From the NCBI RefSeq assembly GCF_001898575.1, contig NZ_MKUD01000002.1:1-64000 (forward strand): 64,000 bases of DNA. The letters run 5' to 3'. Positions 52,012 to 52,231 of this stretch are shown piece by piece (the stretch's first letter is position 1; each line of letters starts with the position of its first letter). This stretch comes from Spirosoma sp. 48-14. GTDB taxonomy: Bacteria; Bacteroidota; Bacteroidia; Cytophagales; Spirosomataceae. The notes beneath the pieces were generated by a model, which was not told the DNA's origin, did not search any database, and saw nothing but the letters and a program-made list of their open reading frames with translations. A program made the translations under genes and the position numbers.

Positions 52012-52019
52012 CAAAATTA
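52012..52019 (-). promoter_or_regulatory. Candidate -7 box TAATTTTG for rplC
   Basis: A perfect TAnnTTTG on the minus strand 72 bases ahead of rplC and downstream of the terminator at 52074. No good -33 box at the usual distance. It would allow rplC expression independent of the upstream RNA. Confidence 0.4.
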
Positions 52020-52073
52020 GAGAAATAATCAGACGAATCCTATATCTGCCTAAAAATCAGCCCCAGAAACAAC

Positions 52074-52105
52074 AAAAAAGGTCGGGCGCACTGCACCTGA
52101 CCTTT
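52074..52105 (-). terminator. Intrinsic terminator at the end of the structured RNA
   Basis: On the minus strand AAAGGTCAGG can pair locally with CCCGACCTTT (one wobble), followed by TTTTGTTGTTT. The same bases can instead take part in the long-range rod of the RNA, so terminator and rod are alternative pairings for the AAAGGTCAGG segment. This is the arrangement expected of an attenuator. Confidence 0.7.
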
Positions 52106-52217
52106 CACGGGCATACAAAAACTTGGCTAGCAAGGCTTGTTTGCCCAAAAGTCAGGTATGGTTTCCGCAGTACGGACCTTCACCCTCGTATGTTGTTGAT
52201 TTGTGTATTCGAGTTTG
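52074..52217 (-). ncRNA. Structured small RNA or operon leader ahead of rplC
   Basis: On the minus strand, bases from about 52217 to 52074 would form a long rod-like RNA ending in a U-run. Stems: 52175-52180 with 52078-52083 (6 bp), 52167-52173 with 52088-52094 (7 bp, one G-U), 52148-52157 with 52096-52105 (10 bp), 52142-52146 with 52109-52113 (5 bp), and a small apical stem 52137-52140/52115-52118 plus 52131-52134/52122-52125. A 5' bulge GGAAACCAU sits between two stems. A TAATTTTG box precedes it. There is no open frame. It could be a stand-alone RNA or an attenuator leader of the ribosomal operon. It does not show the SRP RNA GGAA loop. I cannot match it to a known family. Confidence 0.65.
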
Positions 52218-52223
52218 GGAGTG

Positions 52224-52231
52224 CAAAATTA
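52224..52231 (-). promoter_or_regulatory. Candidate -7 box TAATTTTG for the structured RNA
   Basis: Perfect TAnnTTTG on the minus strand, followed by C as is common in the phylum. ATTTTC, one base from TTTTG, lies 20 bases further upstream as a possible -33 box. A start about seven bases downstream would give a transcript of about 144 bases to the U-run. Confidence 0.5.

Follow-up and report, generated by a model that had tools for sequence, protein, structure and literature searches.

A probable cis-acting transcription attenuator in the rplC operon leader of the family of Spirosoma, Dyadobacter and Runella

Here we report a structured RNA element in the rplC (S10-spc) operon leader of Spirosoma sp. 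48-14, which we consider quite likely to be a cis-acting transcription attenuator and of which the searches made gave no convincing example outside the family of Spirosoma, Dyadobacter and Runella. The element lies in a 64,000 nt stretch of contig NZ_MKUD01000002.1 (the window), where four short arms can form three mutually exclusive helices: an anti-antiterminator (1:2), an antiterminator (2:3) and an intrinsic terminator (3:4). Attenuation is the best-supported reading of its sequence and predicted folds.

All parts of the element are encoded on the minus strand. Transcription is predicted to be fed by P1 (TAATTTTG, 52224..52231), a sequence match to the TAnnTTTG type of -7 box, and to start at ACTCCCAAACTC (52211..52222), which is near-invariant in an alignment of 34 sequences from the genus. 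Arm 1 (GGGTG, 52181..52185), placed by its pairing with arm 2, forms the 5′ strand of helix 1:2 and is followed by a putative ligand-binding core, AAGGUC-hairpin-GGAAACC-A (52159..52180), identified from invariant columns in 79 sequences. Pairing counts define arm 2 (TACCTGACTT, 52149..52158; CAUCUGAC.. in relatives), the partner of either arm 1 or arm 3, and arm 3 (AAGGTCAGGTGC, 52093..52104), which is common to antiterminator and terminator; the two are separated by a predicted hairpin (52105..52148) that varies in length and sequence across the alignment. Arm 4 (GCGCCCGACCTT, 52078..52089) is the 3′ arm of the terminator, and the T-run (52074..52079), read from the sequence, is conserved in the 79-sequence alignment. 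The predicted non-coding RNA that follows P1 and ends with the T-run is ∼145 nt long, and no open reading frame of 60 or more codons overlaps 52074-52231 on either strand. The TAATTTTG box, non-coding stretch and U-run terminator described in an earlier note on this DNA are therefore borne out, but that description overlooked both the arm further upstream with which the antiterminator arm can pair and a second conserved TAnnTTTG box, P2 (TAATTTTG, 52012..52019), recognised from box counts across loci and situated between the terminator and rplC. The rplC open reading frame (L3, 51320..51940) is the first gene of the operon and is followed by what we take, from recognising ribosomal protein sequences, to be rplD, rplW, rplB, rpsS, rplV, rpsC and further genes; tblastn also found the rplC-rplD order in relatives.

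The region 52219-52074 has a predicted minimum free energy of -51.2 kcal/mol compared with a mean of -34.8 kcal/mol (sd 3.4) for shuffled sequences (z -4.9), and 0 of 200 shuffles folded as well, in agreement with the earlier view of the interval as a structured RNA. The fold predicted at minimum free energy is rod-like, and its long-range helix is in competition with the stem of the terminator, again as had been proposed. A generic terminator scan also picked up the site, although such sites are no commoner there than in shuffles (3 versus a mean of 3.0), so the case for the element rests on its conservation.

That conservation is concentrated in the core and the competing arms. All 79 sequences of the core alignment share UGAAGGUC and GAAACC without change; six loci without rplC (L128-L133) and one with an interrupted T-run (L109) were excluded from this alignment. 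Arm 1 is mostly GGGUG or GGAUG and its partner in arm 2 is CAYCU, a pairing that frames AAGGUC-hairpin-GAAACCR; extended as CAYCUGAC.., arm 2 pairs with arm 3 (..GGUCAGRUG), which also pairs with arm 4. In Dyadobacter-type members arms 2 and 4 have nearly the same sequence, as expected if both have to pair with arm 3. Across the 79 sequences 98.9% of cells are paired in helix 1:2, 95.2% in 2:3 and 94.2% in 3:4, compared with at most 51.0%, 43.2% and 55.9%, respectively, when the strands are slid by 1-3 columns. Arm 2 of the window carries U at a position that is C in the remaining 78 sequences, so that the pair there is G-U, and arm 2 positions 55, 56 and 57 mispair with arm 3 in 26, 3 and 8 of the 79 sequences.

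Covariation, which the earlier note had proposed as a check, is clear in the terminator helix only, where 62 cells are changed on both sides (18 in shuffles) and 7 of 12 pairs are affected. Helix 1:2 has 11 doubly changed cells, 10 of them in one pair, and its pair types were reached by 498 of 500 shuffles; helix 2:3 has two, with a pair-type count reached by 49 of 500 shuffles, a weak signal. Both helices are too conserved in sequence for covariation to say much about them, and the evidence for them consists mainly of maintained pairing together with joint changes in two lineages. One of these (L110) differs jointly at one position of all four arms (G-C-G-C to A-U-A-U) and the other (L116) in arms 2, 3 and 4; both sequences seem to be contigs of metagenome-assembled genomes (MAGs). 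Mild support for shared pairing comes from position 50, common to 1:2 and 2:3, which carries C only in sequences with G at both partners (8/8), where independent columns would give about two clashes per partner. A tree-aware sign test of six column pairs in 77 rows reached 0.05 for none of them: columns 127/153 changed jointly in 4 of 4 independent pairs, 133/147 in 2 of 5 and 136/144 in about 2 of 4, the remaining cases being unchanged and none opposite, while the arms of 1:2 and 2:3 barely vary. The conserved antiterminator sharing an arm with the terminator that is expected of an attenuator is thus found as maintained pairing with little covariation, and the intrinsic terminator expected between promoter and gene is likewise present, as judged by sequence.

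Before arm 4 has been made, helix 2:3 is predicted to be more stable than 1:2 by 6.7 kcal/mol (sd 1.2) in 79/79 sequences, which are related to one another and so are not independent observations. Once the RNA is full length, the antiterminated and terminated states differ by a predicted 0.2 kcal/mol (sd 3.7), and the terminated state is the more stable in 37/79 only. The longest run complementary to the terminator averages 9.6 in 78 cores and 6.0 in their shuffles, exceeding all 20 shuffles in just 45 of the 78; 2 of 11 terminator-like sites in the window also exceed their shuffles, and these two may include the element. In plain rpsJ terminators from six genomes of other families and from the window's genome the longest complementary upstream run is 4-7, as in shuffles. 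These comparisons bear on a simpler reading, that the element is a plain terminator shielding P2 and rplC from upstream transcription, its other arms being chance or decoration. In several other Cytophagales families rpsJ is indeed separated from the rplC promoter by a plain terminator, but the competitor arm is not seen in the seven plain rpsJ terminators compared, the invariant UGAAGGUC and GAAACC blocks lie upstream of the terminator, and a dedicated promoter ahead of an insulator would be pointless. We therefore think simple shielding quite improbable.

The 320-base upstream region has matches in 34 of 36 genomes of the genus, with rplC downstream in 33 of the 34 loci (the exception being L029). 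A covariance model built from the 34 genus sequences and searched against 150 family genomes gave matches in 80; among 66 non-genus matches listed, 52 loci were examined, and rplC lies 100-156 nt downstream on the same strand in 46. The six without it (L128-L133) are among the weakest matches (27-31 bits), although L134, which has rplC, matches as weakly. Scanning named genomes, partly overlapping those of the model search, with the core pattern returned 102 stretches, of which 84 are followed by rplC in the same orientation, 175-235 nt from the pattern. In four of the other 18, all from the family, the pattern is near the end of the stored stretch, and the remaining 14, in unrelated organisms, look like chance matches. 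Position ahead of a ribosomal protein operon across genomes, as expected of a ribosomal protein leader, is thus a consistent feature of the element. It is present in Spirosoma, Dyadobacter, Runella, Larkinella, Fibrella, Fibrisoma, Fibrivirga, Rudanella, Persicitalea, Telluribacter, Rhabdobacter, Arsenicibacter and Arundinibacter, as well as in some Cytophagales MAGs, and many of these genera are placed in Spirosomataceae in the NCBI taxonomy. Outside the family no match was stronger than 2.2e-5 in 291 order and 395 class genomes, samples that include some family members and in which the best few candidates per genome were scored under strict filters; none of the weak matches in the order search was at rplC among 11 genomes in which the place of rplC is known, and several of the weak outside matches hit both strands, as palindromic terminators do. 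A contig labelled Flavobacterium sp. SUN052 (L138) has an rplC region with a core motif equal to that of Rudanella, possibly through mislabelling or contamination.

How transcripts reach the element differs between members. The -7 consensus for the primary sigma factor of Bacteroides is TAnnTTTG (PMC7366714). It stands at the place of P1 in 34 of 34 genus loci, and a P1-like box occurs within 70 nt upstream of the core in 57 of 79 sequences (TAnnTTTG in 50, GAnnTTTG in 7), against 2.6% of shuffles with TAnnTTTG at that place. All 78 loci whose sequence includes the start of rplC have a P2-like box (TAnnTTTG in 71, GAnnTTTG in 7; TAnnTTTG in 8.4% of shuffles), and with P2 behind the terminator rplC need not depend on read-through. 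Twenty of the 22 members that have no P1-like box lie 22-97 nt behind the end of rpsJ, and the other two (L101 and L110) have a degenerate box by eye; on this basis we read the sequences as showing an element fed either by its own promoter or by read-through from rpsJ. A further 18 members combine a P1-like box with rpsJ 95-195 nt upstream, which makes the rule one of distance. In the window's genome rpsJ is on a separate contig, followed by a plain terminator and, judging from its translation, presumably a mutL-like gene. The element accompanies rplC here, away from rpsJ, and this placement favours action in cis on rplC.

Two further features were noted around these promoters. Ahead of P2, the genus strongly conserves a block at 52031-52060 (CTGATTGTTAAGCAGATATAGGATTC in relatives), which is mostly too distant from the -7 box for a plain -33 element. 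The stretch at 52211-52231 recurs several times in genomes of one other genus (L060-L063 and other contigs of their genomes), perhaps as a start-region signature common to strong promoters.

The earlier note had left the choice between an autoregulatory leader and an independent small RNA, and these data weigh on it. A trans-acting RNA that merely adjoins rplC, with the operon driven by P2 alone, would account for P1, the 144-nt body and the terminator forming a complete unit in the window's genus and for P2 being present in 78/78 loci. It fits poorly with the 20 members that lie close behind rpsJ with no P1-like box, with the weakness of the six non-genus loci (of 52) in which rplC is missing, and with the conservation of the competing arms of 1:2 and 2:3, which a small RNA would not need. 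We accordingly regard a free-standing small RNA as unlikely, and the autoregulatory leader is favoured by three exclusive conserved helices, linkage to rplC and supply from P1 or rpsJ.

Searches of known families, which the earlier note had suggested should include 6S and SRP models, gave no credible match. A scan of the window gave no match to Rfam 15 at gathering score; loose scans gave four matches in the interval and one in 11 homologous loci, all weak and unrelated, and a scan of 12 loci with other leaders gave two, with every one of these far below gathering; neither an E. coli-type L4 leader nor any Rfam ribosomal protein leader model matches the element. The rod shape and length are those that might be expected of the lineage's 6S or SRP RNA, and RF00013 and RF01685 are both absent from the genome. 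However, RF00013 also misses the Bacteroides control genome, which makes its absence uninformative, and RF01685 misses every control. Neither the window nor the 11 homologous loci have a credible Rfam match, and linkage to rplC and the missing promoter close behind rpsJ are a poor fit to a housekeeping RNA of either kind, an identity that we hold to be highly improbable. A two-part loose scan against E. coli rRNA gave weak matches, each with two mismatches, to 16S (2) and 23S (6) and none to 5S. The joined 16S and 23S count was reached by 0 of 100 mononucleotide shuffles (mean 3.9, maximum 10), but since such shuffles ignore dinucleotides we draw no rRNA mimicry from this slight excess; the 23S match near nucleotide 495 is recorded as a lead only.

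Under the attenuator reading, RNA polymerase would enter from P1, or from rpsJ in Dyadobacter-type genomes. By default the emerging arm 3 would be captured by arm 2, so that the terminator is blocked and transcription reads on into rplC. A ligand bound to the conserved AAGGUC-hairpin-GAAACCR would lock helix 1:2; arm 3, thereby freed, would pair with arm 4 and form the terminator, and transcription would stop, leaving the ∼145 nt RNA. P2 would give a basal, unattenuated supply of rplC. As the downstream genes form a ribosomal protein operon, the leader probably acts by feedback, sensing a ribosomal protein of the operon in excess, and by analogy with E. coli the likeliest candidate is L4. Sensing of another signal, such as a small molecule, tRNA or general factor, has in its favour that the core is small and highly conserved and that a ribosomal protein ligand is deduced from operon content; the operon served encodes ribosomal proteins, and no T-box or riboswitch family of Rfam matches, so we assign such a ligand a low probability.

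Trp-type attenuators decide termination through alternative helices 1:2, 2:3 and 3:4, and the three alternative helices of the element resemble them. Unlike those systems the element is unlikely to have a leader peptide, since arms 1 and 2 are joined by a loop of variable length. The E. coli S10 leader, in which a surplus of uL4 is believed to make transcription terminate prematurely and which works with NusA and also controls translation (PMC10931766, in part), is likewise an S10-operon leader with an intrinsic terminator. In contrast, the element serves rplC, with rpsJ upstream or elsewhere, and has the promoter-like P2 behind its terminator; the NusA role and translational control belong to the E. 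coli leader as that excerpt describes it, and the element has no counterpart in Rfam. The same excerpt states that Bacteroidota do not use Shine-Dalgarno pairing, so that translational repression in the E. coli style may be less available to them. Eckert and Weinberg (2020) described structured ribosomal protein leaders, several of them in Bacteroidia and Flavobacteria, including an L4 candidate before rplC in Archaeoglobi and L13 and S4 motifs for Bacteroidia (PMC7247131, in part). A bacterial rplC leader is absent from the compared part of Table 1 of that survey of 20 novel leaders, and its main text mentions neither Cytophag- nor rpsJ. In the open-licence literature, searches for Spirosoma small-RNA leaders, Cytophagales noncoding RNA with ribosomal proteins and Dyadobacter riboswitches returned nothing beyond one unrelated item.

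We record as leads that other conserved sequences occupy the same place in 15 family genomes examined that do not have the element. Five of these contain GAAGUC-hairpin-GAAACCR between differing flanking arms, each folding into a stem, and a sixth (L290) has a GAAACCU variant; the pattern, chosen after reading the sequences and with flanking-arm covariation judged by eye and from single folds, is absent from the other 15 genomes compared and from elsewhere in those loci, and occurs in 1 of 6000 shuffled regions. A longer conserved leader, ∼270-370 nt upstream of rplC, was observed in other genera of the family (L287, L288, L289, L290, L292 and L275), with blocks in the order GAAGUC-hairpin-GAAACC (flanked by pairing arms), CAGUCUCC.., ..AACAAGG.. 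and CAAGUUG..CAACCUCUG, and from these sequences it may have the same aptamer core as the element. A third leader, recognised by eye upstream of rplC in nine loci (L270-L274, L276, L279, L280 and L284), is built about GUGUYAGAACUGAUAUUG..UGAAUGCCC..AAUAUUAAGCUACACAAG, in most cases with a GGUUGGCAGAACU block before it; scans of six of these loci matched no Rfam family credibly. We tentatively raise the possibility that GAAG(G)UC-hairpin-GAAACCR is a new ribosomal protein-binding aptamer carried on at least two expression platforms at one place, a terminator switch and the longer leader, with the third leader at that place in further genera, and that this one family has exchanged the control of its S10 operon more than once.

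As a family, the element would be new to Rfam 15. To our knowledge, how Bacteroidota balance the synthesis of ribosomal proteins has been little studied. A compact three-helix switch before the largest ribosomal protein operon would make this balance directly testable, and the natural variants with and without their own promoter add to that testability.
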